In this document: positions 2 through 31,615 of the stretch, one piece after another
Numbering within the stretch: position 1 is the stretch's first letter
How the letters are laid out: the number at the start of each line of letters is the position of its first letter
Assembly: GCA_017885605.1 (NCBI GenBank)
Contig: JAFNFT010000096.1
Coordinates: 1-33,021, forward strand
Direction: 5' to 3'
Length of the DNA: 33,021 nucleotides
Source: Methanobacteriota archaeon
GTDB lineage: Archaea > Thermoplasmatota > E2 > DHVEG-1
The notes under the pieces: model-generated
Database searches by the model: none
What the model was told of the DNA's origin: nothing
Seen by the model: only the letters and a program-made list of their open reading frames with translations
Made by a program: the position numbers and the translations under genes

Positions 2-157
2 TATCTATTTCGGGATGAAGCCACCCGACTTGTTACTAACATCTTTCTCTATGGCCTGTCACCCGATTATGAGACAGAACCCCATGCTTTGATTTTATTT
101 TATACACATGACCCAAAAACAAGATTAATATTAATAGAAGTAATTTGCTTTTCTTAA
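2..157 (+). CDS. 3' end of an unrecognised gene entering from the left
   Basis: Frame 2 is open from the window edge to a TAA at 155-157, giving 51 residues. The translation reads like protein (for example RDEATRLVTN and YETEPHALIL), with mixed charged and hydrophobic residues and no low-complexity bias. The start lies outside the window. Its last 27 bases overlap the end of the convergent restriction-modification gene. I recognise no family, and the fragment could be a decayed gene or chance. Confidence 0.35.
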   Translation, partial: YLFRDEATRLVTNIFLYGLSPDYETEPHALILFYTHDPKTRLILIEVICFS

Positions 158-3100
158 ACAAGAGTTTTTAATCTTTTCTTGCGTCTTAACATCATCAGAA
201 AGATTTTTTGTTTCTTTATTAATTTTTGACTTCCAATTACGTAAATCTTCTTTAAAATCTCGTAGAACTTGATTGACATCCTTTGGAATAGGAATTTGTG
301 TCATTCCTCTTGCTGCACAATGATAGACATATTCAGCTGTTTCCATATTTTCAAATGAATATTTTTTATCATCTATGGATACAATTGGGATGCCAGCATA
401 ATTCATTTTGTAATCAATATTTTTACCGATGACGATATTAATCTTTTCTTTGATTTCTTCCTTAATAATATAATCATTTGGAAAATCTTTCATTGTGTTT
501 TCCTGTAATATCTCATCTGCAATTTGATTTAAATCTGAACCATTTTTAGTTGATTTGTTTTTCAAACTGGATGCTTTTTTTTGTCGTTCATTAATAATAT
601 TTACTACAGCAGGGTACCATTTATTCAAGAATTTATCTGGATTTTTATATCCGATAGCCGTGAGCAATATTCGATCAAGTTCTAGCCGATCCTTTTTTAC
701 TGCATTTAATGTAAATGGTTGTTTCATATCCCATATTTCATCAAAAATATTTCCTATCTTACGATCTTCCAATTTCTTCATTATTACTTTTAATTTTTTA
801 TAATATGGGCGTATTAATTTTAAATCTGGTATTGGTAATAGATCAGTTTCATATACCATGAAGCCTGCTGCTCCACCACCGTAATTTCTTCCAAACATAT
901 CTGGATATAAATAGGTCAAGGAGGAATTTAAGAAAGAATAAACACCGATTATATCATTTTTATAAGCTAGTTTTAATTTTCCAAGATATAACTGGTGATC
1001 TAACAAGAAATTGCTTTTTGGATATAGAAATGTGGAATAGAAATACATTGTTAAAACAATATCTGGATAGATAACTGGAGTTAATTTCCACCAAGGATTC
1101 CTACTTTTACATGTTAATCTATTACTGTAAGGTTCATCAGGCGGATTCTTTTCTCCATATTCGATATATTTTAAAGCAAACTTATTTATTTTTTTTCTAT
1201 TATGTTCTTTAATCAATACTACTTTCTTCTTTGTATTCTTAAAAAAATTCAAAATACCATTACTTGTGAACTCTTTAGGAGATTTCACAACATTTTGGAG
1301 ATATTTATTTTCTAAAAGATGAACAACATTGTTCCCATCCTTAATTATGCGGATTTTTTTTAATTCACCTTTTCTTAGGCCATATTTTTGTTTTAATATT
1401 TCGGGAGGGATGCTGTCTGTAATGTCTGCTACGTAGAAAAATTCGTTCGCTCCAGTGGTAAAACCTCTCTGTATGTCCATTACTTCTTTTAATGGTTTCA
1501 TATTTTTTGTGAGTTGAAATAGTTCATCTGGGGCTTTTAGATATGAATAAAATTTTGATTTAATAACATCATTAAAATCAATATTTCCTTGTCGTATAAT
1601 TCTTTTAATATCGACTTCATCTGTACTCATTTCATCTAAAATTTGTTTTTTAATTTTTATTGCTGCTTTTATATCTGGTACAAGATCATCAATTTTTGTA
1701 TTGATTCTTATGAATTTTATTTTATTATCGTCTCTATCTTGTTTTTTTGAACACCGTTCTAAAATCATTATGCTTGTGTTAACCAGTGCGTCTTCAAACC
1801 ATCGTTCCACTGAACTGTCGATAACAACTTTTATTTTGAAATAATTATTAAGGAATTTTTTAAAATCAATACCATATTCAACATTCATCCAAGTATCAGA
1901 TGTTAAGAATCCGATTCTTGATCCTTCTTTTAAAAAAGGCAATATATAGTACCAAAAATAAACATGAAAATCGGAAGTAGATGATGGTAAACCAGTGTCA
2001 TAAAATCCATTAGTTTCCAGCATTTTTTTAACTTTATCTATCTGTTTTTCCTTGTTTTCTATCTGCTCTTGTCTAATATAAGGAAGATTTGATACTACTG
2101 CATCAAGTGGTTTGAAAATAATTTGTTTCTTTTCTCCATTCAATGTTTCGACGATGGCAGATCCCGAATCTGAGTAAAACGTCCTATATCTCGGAACCAT
2201 CTCGTTTGTCTTGATGTCAAAGAAATTTTTTCTAACGATTTTAGGGTAGATTTTAGGGTCAATGAAAAGAAGCTTTGCAGACATTGCCATCATTGCTAAA
2301 TGGACTGGATAGGGTGCTATATCAATACCAAAAATTTCTTCCATAAATTTTTGGCGTATTTCTTGATTATCTTCCTTTGCAAGCATCAATTTATAATCAA
2401 AAGCCTCTGATCCAAAGGTCATAGTCCCACAAGCGGGGTCCATTACTCTATCATCTTTATGCTCTATTGTTAATACATTAATCAAATCAACAATTGGTAT
2501 TGGTGTATAATATTGACCTAAAGCATGTCTTTGTTCTCGAGAGATTAACCTGTCGTAGATATTCCCTAATGCAGATTGGGGCATTTTATCAATTTTGTAT
2601 TGATTAAGATAATTTACTAATGCTTTTATTAGTGTAGATAATTTATTATCTGCAAATAATATTTCATCAGCTTCATGAATTTCAAAAATCGGTTCAAAAT
2701 CTCCCGAGATTCTTTGTGCTTCTTCAAATGCACCTTGAATTAATCCTTTTATCATTTTTGCTGTTACGAGATTTTCAGGGATTGTGACATCAGGTAATTC
2801 ATTGAAAGATCTCTGCATTATATTATAAAAAACAATTTTATTTGCTAATTTATATGCCGTATATCTTACGAGTCGTTTTTTGTGATCATCTTCAAAATTT
2901 TTAACCGGTTCATATTCTTGTTCCATCCACCATTTTTTTAATAATATATTTTTTACATATTTATAGGCGGCTTCAACAATGACATCGAGATGGGAATTTA
3001 AACCAAGAACAAATCCTTCGCCAATAGGTTTGTAAGATACATCGATTTTCTTTTCTTGGAGATTATCTATATAAAGAATAACATCAATTATCATTTTTTT

Positions 3101-3499
3101 TAATAATTGTTTTGTAGTCTCAGATTCAAAATCCTCCTCTCTTTTGATTTTTTTTTCTATAAATATTCTGTGAATCTCTCTGTTAATTAACGGTATTGTA
3201 CAATCTCTATTATCCCAAATTACTGTTTCATTAAAATTAGATGTAATAAAATATCGCGATCCAACTGCTGTTGCTTTTTTAAAAGCATCATCTACTAACT
3301 TGATATTTCGTGGACTAAATCCTTCAACTATAGTAGGTCGCTTATACTCTCCTGTAAATAAAATTTTTTTATTTTTTTTAACGACCAAATCATCCAATTT
3401 ATGACTCTCAGATAATTCTACGTCTGCTGAGTAGTTGTTACCATACTCATTAACGAATCCAGATATTCTCGATACAATAGTCTCTTCTCTGAGTTTCAT
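131..3499 (-). CDS. Type IIG-like restriction-modification enzyme (Eco57I-type N6-adenine methylase with N-terminal nuclease)
   Basis: This 1122-residue protein has the size and order of single-chain type IIG enzymes, which methylate adenine and cut DNA. An N-terminal PD-(D/E)XK-like site is suggested by DD at 36-37 followed by EYK at 51-53. A helical linker runs to about residue 310. The methylase core has GQYYTP (328-333), the SAM-binding motif DPACGT (354-359) and a catalytic NLPY (471-474), a variant of NPPY. The C-terminal half, about 680-1000, should hold target recognition. The gene is very AT-rich. It begins the accessory region, is divergent from the 3632 gene, and has no separate methylase or specificity gene nearby. 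The family call is strong; nuclease activity is inferred from motifs. Confidence 0.85.
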   Translation of the reverse strand: MKLREETIVSRISGFVNEYGNNYSADVELSESHKLDDLVVKKNKKILFTGEYKRPTIVEGFSPRNIKLVDDAFKKATAVGSRYFITSNFNETVIWDNRDCTIPLINREIHRIFIEKKIKREEDFESETTKQLLKKMIIDVILYIDNLQEKKIDVSYKPIGEGFVLGLNSHLDVIVEAAYKYVKNILLKKWWMEQEYEPVKNFEDDHKKRLVRYTAYKLANKIVFYNIMQRSFNELPDVTIPENLVTAKMIKGLIQGAFEEAQRISGDFEPIFEIHEADEILFADNKLSTLIKALVNYLNQYKIDKMPQSALGNIYDRLISREQRHALGQYYTPIPIVDLINVLTIEHKDDRVMDPACGTMTFGSEAFDYKLMLAKEDNQEIRQKFMEEIFGIDIAPYPVHLAMMAMSAKLLFIDPKIYPKIVRKNFFDIKTNEMVPRYRTFYSDSGSAIVETLNGEKKQIIFKPLDAVVSNLPYIRQEQIENKEKQIDKVKKMLETNGFYDTGLPSSTSDFHVYFWYYILPFLKEGSRIGFLTSDTWMNVEYGIDFKKFLNNYFKIKVVIDSSVERWFEDALVNTSIMILERCSKKQDRDDNKIKFIRINTKIDDLVPDIKAAIKIKKQILDEMSTDEVDIKRIIRQGNIDFNDVIKSKFYSYLKAPDELFQLTKNMKPLKEVMDIQRGFTTGANEFFYVADITDSIPPEILKQKYGLRKGELKKIRIIKDGNNVVHLLENKYLQNVVKSPKEFTSNGILNFFKNTKKKVVLIKEHNRKKINKFALKYIEYGEKNPPDEPYSNRLTCKSRNPWWKLTPVIYPDIVLTMYFYSTFLYPKSNFLLDHQLYLGKLKLAYKNDIIGVYSFLNSSLTYLYPDMFGRNYGGGAAGFMVYETDLLPIPDLKLIRPYYKKLKVIMKKLEDRKIGNIFDEIWDMKQPFTLNAVKKDRLELDRILLTAIGYKNPDKFLNKWYPAVVNIINERQKKASSLKNKSTKNGSDLNQIADEILQENTMKDFPNDYIIKEEIKEKINIVIGKNIDYKMNYAGIPIVSIDDKKYSFENMETAEYVYHCAARGMTQIPIPKDVNQVLRDFKEDLRNWKSKINKETKNLSDDVKTQEKIKNSCLRKANYFY

Positions 3500-4301: not shown

Positions 4302-4312
4302 AAATATTTATT
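4302..4312 (+). promoter_or_regulatory. TATA box for structured RNA copy A
   Basis: AAATATTTATT lies about 30 bases before the first base of the closing stem of RNA copy A at 4338, close to archaeal TATA-to-start spacing. Copy B has a TATA-like element at nearly the same distance. Confidence 0.45.
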
Positions 4313-4337
4313 TAGTAATTAAAGATAATGATTCTTC

Positions 4338-4442
4338 GGGAAGTCAAAAAGAGATAGATCAACGAGGTCTTTTGGTCTTTATCTTCCCAGACTATGCGTT
4401 CCATTGTTTGTATCTATCTTTTCCTCCCAGACAAAGACTCCC
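4338..4442 (+). ncRNA. Candidate structured RNA, copy A of a repeated family
   Basis: This 105-base element begins with GGGAAGTC (4338-4345) and ends with GACTCCC (4436-4442), which pair with one bulged A. An inner stem pairs AGATAGAT (4352-4359) with ATCTATCT (4412-4419) perfectly. The motif TCCCAGAC occurs twice, once in the central loop (4385-4392) and once on the 3' side between the stems (4425-4432). Copy B at 16762-16861 has the same layout. No reading frame explains the conservation, and a TATA-like box precedes it. It could instead be a small mobile element with inverted ends, though I see no target-site duplication. Confidence 0.5.
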
Positions 4443-7977: not shown

Positions 7978-8442
7978 TTAATCTAATAATTTGTTTTCAT
8001 TTAATTTATCCCAAGCTTTTTTTATTTCATTTTTTGAAAATTTAGGTTTTCTTCGGTGCAGAGCATCAATAGTTTCATCCATATCGAAATTACAATTTTT
8101 TCTAATGTAAAGTATAGATGCAAATAATTCTATCTCATCAATATTTGGCTTGGTAATTTTAAAAAAATCTATCGCAGTTTTAAATATTTTTTCATTTTCC
8201 TCTGATTTAAACTCAATTAATTCTAAATTACTTGTATCATTTATCTTATAAAGATTAGTTGCTAAATCTGATGAATATGGACCATACACATACCATTTAA
8301 ATTTATATCCAAGATCTAAGCCAAATCCTTTTTGAAGGATATAACAAATTTTTTGAGCAAATAATCTGTCCTCAAAATTATTAGAATCAAATTCTTTAAT
8401 ACGTTTTAACAGTCCGAAAATTGCCTCACTCTTATTGCTCAT
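7978..8442 (-). CDS. YwgA/Panacea (DUF4065)-like protein
   Basis: This 154-residue soluble protein has the pattern of YwgA- and Panacea-type proteins: an N-terminal helix, then RLFAQKICYILQ, then LGYKFKWYVYGPYSSDLA (residues about 42-60). The family is known from SocA-like antitoxins and from mobile elements. The C-terminal half is helical and charged. ATG at 8442 lies about 25 bases downstream of a minus-strand TATA (near 8464-8472), so translation is probably leaderless. No matching toxin is obvious next to it. It is convergent with the regulator remnant at 7897. The family call is moderate. Confidence 0.6.
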   Translation of the reverse strand: MSNKSEAIFGLLKRIKEFDSNNFEDRLFAQKICYILQKGFGLDLGYKFKWYVYGPYSSDLATNLYKINDTSNLELIEFKSEENEKIFKTAIDFFKITKPNIDEIELFASILYIRKNCNFDMDETIDALHRRKPKFSKNEIKKAWDKLNENKLLD

Positions 8443-10191: not shown

Positions 10192-10926
10192 ATGGTTGCT
10201 ACAAAACTCACCGAAGAAGATCTTGATAGGATAAAAGAAGCGATAAAAAAAGGAGTAAGCACTAAATTATTAGCTGAAAAATATGGGGTTGACCGGTCAA
10301 CGATCCAGAAAAGAGCTAAGGATGTCCTGTCCATAAAGAAGATACCATTGGAAACGAAAAATAAAGTCATCAAAGCGATCAAAGAAGGAGCTACCAAAGC
10401 TGAGGCTGCACAGATGTACGGATTGAACATAGGAACCGTGTATAACCTCACCAGGGGCATTGTAGAGGGTCATCATATCCAGGGGAACCATATCATTCGC
10501 AAGAACGGCATACGGCTTCTGAACAGGCTTATGACCGACGGTTTCTTAGTCTCTGATTTCGTGGTCTCTACTGTCCGAAATCTTCAGATGAAGTTCCCTG
10601 TCATCAAATCAGCAAGATACAGAGATAAAACCTTCTTCTATCTTCCGGGGCGAGAAGAGGAAGCCATAGAGGCTTTCTTCAAGGAGAAACCAGATCGTAT
10701 CATCAGCTACAGTTCTGTTGAGGAGATGGCGTTCCTCCTTGGTGTGAAGATATCCAAGGAGGATCGGAGAAACCTTGTAGATCGGTACAAGCATAAGCAT
10801 GCGCAATATTGGGAATCCAGACGATTGATCCAGAGGCGATTGGAGGATTTCGTCCCTGACTTGGAGTATGTTCCTGTTTCTGAATGGGCTGAACCAAGCT
10901 TCCGTTTATTTCCTAAAAACAAATGA
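10192..10926 (+). CDS. Double helix-turn-helix regulator, copy 1
   Basis: The 244-residue protein has two HTH segments. HTH1 (about 4-43) has the LAEKYGVDRSTIQKRAK pattern, and HTH2 (51-89) contains AEAAQMYGLNIGTVYNLTRG. The remaining 150 residues form a domain I do not recognise, with FPVIKSARYRDKTFFYLPG and YKHKHAQYWESRRLIQRRLE. The paralogue at 12287 differs at only 14 of about 193 aligned positions from residue 51 onward, but only 21 of the first 50 residues are identical. The gene is richer in G and C than its surroundings. ATG at 10192 is probably leaderless, and the operator-like array upstream suggests autoregulation. Confidence 0.75.
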   Translation: MVATKLTEEDLDRIKEAIKKGVSTKLLAEKYGVDRSTIQKRAKDVLSIKKIPLETKNKVIKAIKEGATKAEAAQMYGLNIGTVYNLTRGIVEGHHIQGNHIIRKNGIRLLNRLMTDGFLVSDFVVSTVRNLQMKFPVIKSARYRDKTFFYLPGREEEAIEAFFKEKPDRIISYSSVEEMAFLLGVKISKEDRRNLVDRYKHKHAQYWESRRLIQRRLEDFVPDLEYVPVSEWAEPSFRLFPKNK

Positions 10927-12286: not shown

Positions 12287-13042
12287 ATGGTCAGAAGAAA
12301 ACTTACTGAGAAAGATATCAAAGAGATACAAGATCTCCTTCAACAGGGACATGACGTCCCCGAGCTTGCTGTAAGATATGGTGTGAGCAGATCGGTAATC
12401 TATCGGAGGGCGAAGGATCCCTATATCGCACGAGGAATCCCATTAGAAACCAGGAATAAGGTCATTAAAGCAATCGAAGAGGGCTATACGAAGGCTGAAG
12501 CGGCGCAGATGTACGGGTTGAACATAGGAACCGTCTATAACCTCACAAGGGGCATTGTAGAAGGCCATCATACCCAGGGGAATCATATCATTCGCAAGAA
12601 TGGGATAATGCTTCTGAATAGGCTTATGACCGATGGTTACTTGGTCTCTGATTTCGTGGTCTCCACTGTCCGTAATCTTCAGATGAAGTTCCCTGTCATC
12701 AAATCAGCGAGATATAGGGATAAAACCTTCTTTTTCCTCCCTGGGCGAGAAGAGGAAACCATTGAGGCGTTTTTCAAGGAGAAGGCAGACCGCATCATCA
12801 GCTACAGCTCTGTTGAGGAGATGGCGTTCCTCCTTGGGGTCAAGATATCCAAGGAGGACCAGAGAAACCTTGTGGATCGGTACAAGCACAAGCATACGCA
12901 GTATTGGGAGTCCAGAAGACTTATCCAGAGGCGGTTGGAGGATTTCGTCCCTGATCTCGAATATACTCCGGTGTCTGAGTGGGCTGAGCTAAGCTTCCGA
13001 TTATTCCCTAAAAACCAGGAGGAAAATATTTATAAACCATGA
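12287..13042 (+). CDS. Double helix-turn-helix regulator, copy 2
   Basis: This 251-residue paralogue of the 10192 protein shares its layout. HTH1 (LAVRYGVSRSVIYRRAK) is divergent, while HTH2 and the C-terminal domain are almost identical, and the tail has a short extension (EENIYKP). Nucleotide identity is also high over the shared part, which suggests recent duplication or conversion. The TATA-like CTTTAAATA is about 28 bases before the ATG, consistent with a leaderless transcript. It lacks the repeats and palindrome present before copy 1. The differing first HTH may give different DNA targets. Confidence 0.75.
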   Translation: MVRRKLTEKDIKEIQDLLQQGHDVPELAVRYGVSRSVIYRRAKDPYIARGIPLETRNKVIKAIEEGYTKAEAAQMYGLNIGTVYNLTRGIVEGHHTQGNHIIRKNGIMLLNRLMTDGYLVSDFVVSTVRNLQMKFPVIKSARYRDKTFFFLPGREEETIEAFFKEKADRIISYSSVEEMAFLLGVKISKEDQRNLVDRYKHKHTQYWESRRLIQRRLEDFVPDLEYTPVSEWAELSFRLFPKNQEENIYKP

Positions 13043-16730: not shown

Positions 16731-16740
16731 ATTTATAAAT
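16731..16740 (+). promoter_or_regulatory. TATA box for structured RNA copy B
   Basis: ATTTATAAAT is centred 26-27 bases before G16762, the first base of the perfect outer stem of copy B. This is the textbook archaeal distance and supports transcription of the element from its stem end. Confidence 0.6.
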
Positions 16741-16761: not shown

Positions 16762-16861
16762 GGGGAGTCAAATAAAGAGATATATCCGTGAAATCGTTTT
16801 CTTCCCAGACAACGCGTTCAAATAATTGTATCTATCTTTTTCTCCCAGACATAGACTCCCC
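16762..16861 (+). ncRNA. Candidate structured RNA, copy B of a repeated family
   Basis: The 100-base element is closed by GGGGAGTC (16762-16769) and GACTCCCC (16854-16861), eight perfect pairs. An inner stem pairs AGATATAT (16778-16785) with ATCTATCT (16830-16837), with one mismatch. TCCCAGAC appears at 16803-16810 and 16843-16850, exactly as in copy A, and the loop motif GCGTTC follows the first. Copy A at 4338 matches over most of its length apart from a roughly 8-base indel in the loop. A strong TATA box lies at the right distance. The Lrp gene starts 90 bases downstream with its own TATA-like sequence. A small mobile element remains possible. Confidence 0.6.
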
Positions 16862-16951: not shown

Positions 16952-17479
16952 ATGAATGATATGGCGAAAACAAGTAAGAAACAGATAGATAAGGATATGA
17001 AGCGGACCATGGCAGAGCTGGAGAGGAACTCAAATGAAAACCTTGATGCACTCGCGAAGCGGTTGAAGTTCTCACGGCAGAAGATCTGGAGGTTTGTCAA
17101 GATCCTGGAAAAGAGCAAGGCCATCTGGGGATATACGGCTGTTATTGACAATGAAAGGAGATCGTTGATAGGCTATACGCTGATGCTGAAACGGTCAATG
17201 AAACCGATAGATGAAAAGACCCTAGATGCATTCACATCACAGGAGACACAAGATGCTCTCGGTGTGACCATTGAGAGTTTGTGCTATGTGCATGGTGAGT
17301 ACGACTGGATCCTTTCCTTCACGGCCTCAGATATCAAGATGGCGAAGAGGTTCTATGAAACATTACTGACAACATATCCAGGGGTGTTTGAGCGAGCGAG
17401 CCTATTAGAGACCCTTGTTGCTGTAAGGGATCACCATATCGCTAATCCGAATGTAAAAAAGCTGAAGGAATTTTTGTAA
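16952..17479 (+). CDS. Lrp/AsnC-family transcriptional regulator
   Basis: The 175-residue protein has a winged HTH at about residues 20-58 (NLDALAKRLKFSRQKIWRFVKILE) and then an Lrp-type ligand-binding (RAM) domain, with YVHGEYDWILSFTASDIKMA near 110-130. Lrp proteins bind DNA as dimers or octamers and respond to small molecules, often amino acids; the ligand here is unknown. ATG at 16952 has a weak site, and a second ATG is at 16961. The gene is richer in G and C than its neighbours. It lies between RNA copies B and C, an unusual position that may be functional. Confidence 0.8.
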   Translation: MNDMAKTSKKQIDKDMKRTMAELERNSNENLDALAKRLKFSRQKIWRFVKILEKSKAIWGYTAVIDNERRSLIGYTLMLKRSMKPIDEKTLDAFTSQETQDALGVTIESLCYVHGEYDWILSFTASDIKMAKRFYETLLTTYPGVFERASLLETLVAVRDHHIANPNVKKLKEFL

Positions 17480-17499: not shown

Positions 17500-17572
17500 G
17501 GAGAATAACCGTTCTTTCCATACGTATCCAACACTTTTTATCCTGCCTTTTTTTCCCTAGACCGGACTCCCC
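17500..17572 (+). ncRNA. Decayed copy C of the repeated RNA family
   Basis: The 3' end CCCTAGACCGGACTCCCC (17555-17572) matches copies A and B around CCCAGAC and GACTCCC, and the T-rich stretch before it is also shared. The 5' outer strand (GGGGAGTC) is missing, replaced by AAGTGGAGAA, so the closing stem cannot form fully. It starts 20 bases after the Lrp stop codon. A divergent relative or a degenerate copy are both possible. Confidence 0.3.
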
Positions 17573-30234: not shown

Positions 30235-31425
30235 TTACGCCCTCGCCAGTTTCATTAATGGGGTCAGTTTCACCAACAACGATGGATGCTTCGTCACCAG
30301 AGCCTTAATAATACTTAGTGTACTGAACTCCTCAAATTTATAATCCTTTAAGGAGTCGGCAAGCATATCCAATGTTTTATCTTCCATGTCAAGCATGATT
30401 TCTTTTACTACGTAGTTCCGATGCAGTTTTTTTCCGAACGCGTTCTTCCAGCGGGTTTCGTACTCTGAGAGCGTCTGCGTATCGAAACGCTGTTTCTCCA
30501 CTGCGTTTCCGATGGTTTCACCAGCGTATCTTCCCGCCTCGATCGAATGCATCAGACCACCACCTGTGATAGGATCGACTTGGCGCGCAGCGTCACCGAC
30601 TAAAATGAGGTTGTCTGTAACGGATTGGATTGGTTCAGCGACTGGGTCTGCTCCAGTGATGATACGTAGCGACTCCCCTTTTTTTAACGCAGGTTGAGCA
30701 GCAATGAATTTGTCAAGGTATTGTTTTGCTTTTCCTGCTTCGCTAAGGCTTGCAAGGACGCCGATGCCGACATTTGCAACATCTCTTCCTTTCGGGAACA
30801 CCCAGATATAACCGCCGGGGGCTACATGTTTTCCTAAGAAGAAATCACAATACGGGCTGTCCCAATCAATGTTGGTCATGGTATATTGGACGCAGGTTTC
30901 CAGGTCATAGGGTTTCAGGGTGGTTTTGATCCCTGCCCATCTCCCAACTCTTGATTCTACCCCATCGGCACCAACGACGACATCAGCCTCTATCTCAAGG
31001 GTTTCGTCGAAATGCTGTGCCGTAACTCCTTTTATTTTTCCATTTTTTTTCAGCAGATCAACCGCGCGGGTATTCAACATTATTTCCGCGCCTTTTTTCA
31101 AGGCGCCTCGTGCTAGTTCCTGATCAAAAATATCTCGATATACGACATACCCGGTTTCGTCTCCCGCGTACTCCGCAGCCAATGTTACGGTGGTCCCATT
31201 CGGAGAAAAGATACGTGCCCCCTTCATTTTTGTCGCAATCCACCGTTTTCCCTCCAGAACCTTGAAAGAATCAACCTTCTGACTGACCCCCTCGCCACAG
31301 AGGACAGGAACACCGACTTCAGCGCGACGCTCGAGTATGAGGACTTTTGCTCCTGCTTCAGCGGCAAACCGCGCAGTCATACTCCCCGCAGGCCCGCTTC
31401 CGACGATGACCGCATCATAGTGCAT
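30235..31425 (-). CDS. Geranylgeranyl reductase-type flavoprotein (digeranylgeranylglycerophospholipid reductase)
   Basis: This enzyme saturates the isoprenoid chains of archaeal membrane lipids. The 396-residue length is typical. The FAD-binding GSGPAG (9-14) leads into AEVGVPVLCGEGVS, and later motifs are VVGADGVESRVGRWAG and LVGDAARQVDPITGGGLMHS, all characteristic of the family. It is directly preceded by a small ferredoxin gene (one-base gap), a plausible electron donor, and followed by NAD kinase. The assignment to the lipid reductase rather than a related prenyl reductase is by family pattern. Confidence 0.9.
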   Translation of the reverse strand: MHYDAVIVGSGPAGSMTARFAAEAGAKVLILERRAEVGVPVLCGEGVSQKVDSFKVLEGKRWIATKMKGARIFSPNGTTVTLAAEYAGDETGYVVYRDIFDQELARGALKKGAEIMLNTRAVDLLKKNGKIKGVTAQHFDETLEIEADVVVGADGVESRVGRWAGIKTTLKPYDLETCVQYTMTNIDWDSPYCDFFLGKHVAPGGYIWVFPKGRDVANVGIGVLASLSEAGKAKQYLDKFIAAQPALKKGESLRIITGADPVAEPIQSVTDNLILVGDAARQVDPITGGGLMHSIEAGRYAGETIGNAVEKQRFDTQTLSEYETRWKNAFGKKLHRNYVVKEIMLDMEDKTLDMLADSLKDYKFEEFSTLSIIKALVTKHPSLLVKLTPLMKLARA

Positions 31426-31426
31426 T

Positions 31427-31615
31427 TTATGTCCCCTCCCAGATAATTGCCCCGATCGGGCAGGTTTTCACACAAATAGAACAACTGTTACAGAGCTCAT
31501 TGTCAACAATTGCTTTACTGGAAATCATGAGGATCGCATCTTGCGGGCAGACAGAGATACAACCGCCACATGCTAAACATTTCTCTTTTTTCACAAATGC
31601 CTTATGCTTTGCCAT
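31427..31615 (-). CDS. Two-cluster 4Fe-4S ferredoxin
   Basis: The start is set at ATG 31613-31615 (MAKHKAF), with GAGGTG six bases upstream; a GTG at 31624 would overlap the DUF99 gene. Two cluster motifs are CLACGGCISVCPQD and CNSCSICVKTCPIG. The protein is about 62 residues and carries electrons. Its position next to the reductase suggests it feeds electrons to lipid saturation. Confidence 0.9.
   Translation of the reverse strand: MAKHKAFVKKEKCLACGGCISVCPQDAILMISSKAIVDNELCNSCSICVKTCPIGAIIWEGT

Follow-up and report, generated by a model that had tools for sequence, protein, structure and literature searches.

Two structured elements, copies A and B, in the 33,021-nucleotide stretch of DNA analysed here (the window) are long accessory members of a larger, previously undescribed family of archaeal RNA genes (Table 1). 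The family is defined across genera: its closing stem covaries, its promoter-like sequence lies at a fixed distance, the same kind of protein gene recurs beside it and candidate targets have been identified. A and B probably encode regulators, as the preliminary description had guessed. On balance, we favour the reading that they are genes for trans-acting small RNAs (sRNAs) that use a CU-rich seed as an antisense sequence and block translation initiation at the Shine-Dalgarno sequence. The roles of archaeal sRNAs have been called poorly understood in a review (PMC5867862), and those with a known target or mechanism are few. If the family is what it appears to be, Rfam would gain a new entry, and the CU-rich Shine-Dalgarno blocking of Firmicutes would exist in uncultured sediment archaea too.

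Table 1 Coordinates of the RNA copies and of associated features in the window
Feature	Position	Strand	Remark or basis
Copy A, long-form RNA	4338-4442	+	105 bases; outer stem 4338-4345 (GGGAAGTC) / 4436-4442 (GACTCCC)
TATA-like box, copy A	4304-4313	+	position agrees with the family-wide cluster at -36 to -26
Apical seed of copy A, TCCCAGAC	4385-4392	+	motif search
3' unpaired seed of copy A, CCTCCCAGAC	4423-4432	+	predicted 13-base pairing with the leader of helicase gene T1
Copy B, long-form RNA	16762-16861	+	100 bases; outer stem 16762-16769 (GGGGAGTC) / 16854-16861 (GACTCCCC)
TATA-like box, copy B	16732-16740	+	sequence and family-wide TATA cluster
Apical seed of copy B, TCCCAGAC	16803-16810	+	motif search
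3' unpaired seed of copy B, TCCCAGAC	16843-16850	+	motif search
Lrp/AsnC-like regulator gene next to copy B	16952-17479	+	paralogues follow the copies on contigs C44 and C83
Copy C, decayed 3' end only	about 17545-17572	+	sequence; fold test
Candidate target ATCTGGGAGG	31426-31444	-	leader of gene 30235-31425 (-); sole candidate in the window, this genome only

Copies, forms and distribution of the family

The layout reported in the preliminary description, about 100 bases with an outer and an inner stem, two TCCCAGAC motifs at corresponding sites and a TATA-like box 26-30 bases upstream of the first stem base, holds for both copies, the distance from box to stem being about 29 bases in A and about 26 in B. 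The two are 75% identical over 144 aligned columns that include the promoter region (E = 4e-18), and the window has exactly four occurrences of TCCCAGAC (at 4385 and 4425 in A and at 16803 and 16843 in B) against 0.48 expected. Measured against its own shuffles, copy B shows a clear gain in folding (z = -3.5); the gain for copy A, which has a single A-C mismatch in its outer stem, is marginal (z = -1.6). Copy C retains the 3' part only, just as had been described, and was rejected as a folded RNA because it folds no better than its shuffles.

No family with this layout could be named at the outset, and a scan of the whole window with Rfam 15 gave no match at the gathering threshold; at relaxed E-values, the copies of the same genome and the core loci yielded matches at chance level only. 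The three copies described are real but represent only part of the family, since the same genome carries one further copy on each of contigs C44 and C83, the gene after it being in both cases closely paralogous to the Lrp-like gene beside B, and two more in a gene-poor stretch of contig C19. A model built from six long copies (R1) has matches in all nine genomes of the genus. Each of these genomes, including the one studied here, also has a short form of 65-70 bases, which, wherever both flanks could be read, lies between a TATA-binding-protein gene and a convergent Lrp-like gene. Model R2, built from seven short forms without the long copies, detects a second short form in most genomes of the genus, relatives in other genera and, weakly, B and A themselves (E = 0.013 and 0.098 over 0.1 Mb; 0.091 and 0.67 over 0.7 Mb). 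The idea that the RNA is carried within accessory DNA stands for A and B, which are a longer accessory variant, but not for the family, which has a core member. As separate observations, the core RNA is adjoined by a tandem pair of TATA-binding-protein-like genes (L064 4407-5506, L065 5991-7090 and L070 5779-6889; Pfam on one), and two long copies, at L007 1501-1615 (-) and L080 5577-5701, have a duplicated or extended 3' end, as if recombination with, or insertion into, another copy had taken place.

A covariance-model search of archaeal genomes, which had been proposed as a check, places the family within a single archaeal family. Specifically, the broad model R3 at E ≤ 0.01 has matches in 27 of 45 genomes and 11 of 23 genera of one Thermoplasmata family (MBG-D/Thermoprofundales); a one-contig genome has as many as 19 matching places. 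Ten other families of the order and class, represented by 35 genomes, gave no match. Because R3 was built partly from genomes that it matches, this lack of matches outside the family tells more than the matches within it. All three models find the family and none matches outside this one archaeal family. Among the relatives with a name, nearly all are bins of Thermoplasmata or Euryarchaeota, and SM1-50, SG8-52-3, M9B1D and 3300003432D have been described as Thermoprofundales (MBG-D) (PMC6461988). Viral contigs were considered and rejected: they gave nine exact matches to the 3' end, which are attributable to chance because none comes with the 5' stem strand.

Closing stem, promoter and exposed seed

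The outer, or closing, stem differs in sequence among members (GGGGAGUC/GACUCCCC, GGGGUCUA/UAGACCCC, GGGGUCAA/UUGACCCC, GGGGCUAUC/GAUAGCCCC, GGAGUCUGG/CCAGACUCC and others) and keeps G-U wobbles. Among 39 sequences, 98% of its pairs form, a figure inflated by the several sequences that were collected by requiring a stem, and two-sided changes number 84 against a shuffled mean of 21 and a maximum of 33. Compensatory changes, whose presence had been suggested as a test, affect seven of the eight pairs in an alignment of 24 sequences (three long-form rows of which are out of register), and no shuffle reaches the observed covariation score. This covariation becomes visible only once other genera are added: the RNAalifold consensus of the six long copies retains the outer stem alone, with no two-sided changes. 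The second line of evidence is the promoter, with TTTA[AT] lying at -36 to -26 from the stem in about 60 of 67 descriptor-found copies (about 90%; some are near-duplicates and a few are chance matches) compared with 0.0065 per position at random sites. Covariation and TATA position together support the earlier view of a small non-coding RNA family with its own promoter-like sequence, the transcription of which is predicted.

The most conserved part of the RNA is the unpaired 3' stretch, UUUCCUCCC or near it in most members and followed in this genus by AGAC, which is missing from the seed of genus g11; the long form repeats this seed motif in its apical part, often in degraded form. In predicted folds the seed is wholly or mostly unpaired in most members, as in the UCCC or CU-rich class of sRNAs.

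The same features bear on two readings in which these elements are not RNA genes. Inverted arms and closeness to Lrp-like genes would also suit DNA sites to which the Lrp-like protein binds, be they operators or wrapped recognition sites. However, the layout is polar (only one side has a TATA box, and its distance is fixed), the conserved unpaired stretch is likewise one-sided, G-U pairs are retained in the stems and the arm sequences differ among members, all of which makes DNA sites distinctly improbable. Alternatively, the elements could be non-autonomous transposable elements or insertion-sequence ends with short terminal inverted repeats, in line with the several copies per genome, the duplicated 3' ends of two copies and the presence of 3' remnants, one of which (L014 1476-1516) lies about 40 bases past a frameshifted transposase-like ORF. 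By contrast, there is no 5' arm near this ORF, homology extends upstream beyond the arms through the TATA region, the arms vary with compensation while keeping G-U pairs, and a single-copy core member is syntenic across the genus. The preliminary description had held that homologues consisting only of inverted-repeat transposon ends with target-site duplications would speak against its reading, and none of seven copies (A, B and five others) is flanked by such a duplication. With neither target duplications nor constant arms shared with transposase ends, a MITE or insertion-sequence end is largely refuted, and we accord mobile elements only the slightest probability.

Candidate targets and proposed mechanism

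Under the favoured reading, an antisense sRNA, the TATA box would direct transcription to start about 26-30 bases on, near the base of the outer stem. In the fold of the transcript, which comparison supports, 7-10 pairs would form the closing stem, followed inwards by a hairpin and, on the 3' side, by an unpaired stretch with UUUCCUCCC(AGAC); the long form of A and B would have an extra seed in its apical part. Ribosome binding would be blocked by pairing of the exposed seed with (G)UCUGGGAGG in target mRNAs, around their Shine-Dalgarno sequence. In the genus, (G)UCUGGGAGG, the complement of the seed, forms the Shine-Dalgarno region of the genes predicted as targets: a helicase gene of AAA_11 type (T1), two small divergent genes (T2a and T2b) and the gene for a type II/IV secretion ATPase (T2SSE; T3). 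The T2a and T2b proteins have an N-terminal hydrophobic stretch and are pilin-like by eye, Pfam giving no match. The T1 leader UUGUCUGGGAGGACAAUG is identical in six genomes, and in T3 the GUCUGGG directly before the start is kept in six genomes, the next bases varying.

Targets were sought with patterns and in selected stretches, with one permuted pattern as the control. Across the genus, TCTGGGAGG with an ATG 2-12 bases on gave 71 matches, about a third of which are the RNA genes read backwards, the orthologue sets T1, T2a, T2b and T3 being among the others; the permuted CTTGGGAGG gave 24 matches against 21 in its own reversed background, with no recurrent sets of orthologues. The 3' seed of copy A and the T1 leader are predicted to form 13 contiguous pairs (-25.0 kcal/mol), and the duplexes with the T1, T2a, T2b and T3 leaders range from -15 to -26 kcal/mol. 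Full cofolding with the core short RNA retains the duplex for T1, T2a and T3, and does not retain it for T2b. Predicted pairing with the Shine-Dalgarno sequences of several mRNAs is again as in the UCCC or CU-rich sRNA class, although some complementarity to any leader is expected because the seed includes the anti-Shine-Dalgarno core CCUCC. Leaders in these genomes frequently have GGAGG-type sequences, and the 16S rRNA 3' end in two bins of the genus reads CACCUCCU. The conservation of leaders can also have reasons other than RNA pairing; the T1 and T3 leaders form small hairpins too. As an observation in its own right, the T1 leader reads TTGTCTGGGAGGACAATG, an inverted repeat that would place the Shine-Dalgarno sequence in a hairpin loop (L271-L274, L254 and L261).

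Exposed CU-rich motifs could instead serve as decoys that titrate an RNA-binding protein or the Lrp-like protein without any mRNA pairing, a role that the doubled motif of the long form, the up to 19 copies per genome and the recurrent Lrp-like neighbour would all suit. A decoy, however, needs no match beyond CCUCCC such as that of AGAC to GUCU in several target leaders of the genus, and the Lrp-like protein has a DNA-binding helix-turn-helix, no known RNA-binding domain having been found in it. We consider a decoy unlikely.

An antisense sRNA of this kind would block translation by working like LhrC of Listeria, a multicopy RNA whose UCCC motif is exposed, occurs repeatedly and is complementary to Shine-Dalgarno regions (PMC4132741). 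With LhrC of Listeria monocytogenes and other UCCC-motif sRNAs of Firmicutes, the archaeal family has in common multiple copies, CU-rich motifs in a loop and a single strand, and complementarity to Shine-Dalgarno sequences, a likeness of published layout (PMC4132741) and not of aligned sequence; it differs in its TATA-type promoter, in a seed that sits in the 3' side of the stem enclosing the entire RNA, and in its Lrp-like neighbours. In Methanosarcina mazei, a single-stranded region of sRNA162 masks a predicted ribosome binding site (PMC3510493). This RNA is likewise archaeal and engages a predicted ribosome binding site through a single-stranded region, as the present family would, but it is described as one sRNA, comes from a different lineage and pairs through a linker instead of a bulge inside a closing stem.

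Lrp-like neighbour genes

The Lrp-like protein beside B matches Pfam and NCBIfam models below their cut-offs, and its core relatives exceed the cut-off of HTH_24. At 80 Lrp-centred loci, 21 of 24 descriptor matches lie within 600 bp of the gene, compared with 0-5 for permuted motifs; the 24 include at least one chance match, and the nine orthologous core copies count as one event. The RNA and the Lrp-like gene occur in several independent arrangements (convergent, divergent, downstream and upstream), and many other copies have no Lrp-like neighbour.

This variety also bears on a cis-acting leader or riboswitch of the Lrp-like gene, a reading suggested by B and the C44 and C83 copies, which lie directly upstream of such a gene on the same strand. 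Elsewhere the RNAs are convergent, divergent or downstream, so that no constant same-strand upstream position is kept, and some copies lack the neighbour altogether; a cis-acting leader is very improbable. Two narrower ideas were dropped: a palindromic operator across the TATA box showed a weak excess only, on related sequences, and the Lrp-like mRNA did not emerge as a special target, its ranks scattering widely. Under the antisense reading, the Lrp-like protein is probably part of one circuit with the RNA, whose transcription it might, for instance, control. As a more speculative and tentative extension, MBG-D archaea may possess a riboregulatory network, arrived at independently of the UCCC sRNAs of Firmicutes, in which as many as about 20 paralogous CU-rich-seed RNAs are coupled to Lrp-like regulator paralogues and control secretion or pilus-type and helicase genes through an extended UCUGGGAGG Shine-Dalgarno code.

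About 20-60 bases upstream of the core Lrp-like gene lies a conserved inverted repeat, TAAAAGAGC...GCTCTTA, followed by a GGGGGAAAA-type Shine-Dalgarno sequence (L116-L122); the repeat may serve this gene as an operator or form a hairpin in its mRNA. Elsewhere in the window, a large N6-methylase/Eco57I-type protein weakly resembling MADS2 is encoded at 131-3499 (-), and a short protein at 7978-8442 (-) has a weak, below-cut-off match to a DarG-type antitoxin. The stretches 10342-10920 and 12437-13015 form a direct repeat of 579 bases, 87% identical, with ORFs inside.
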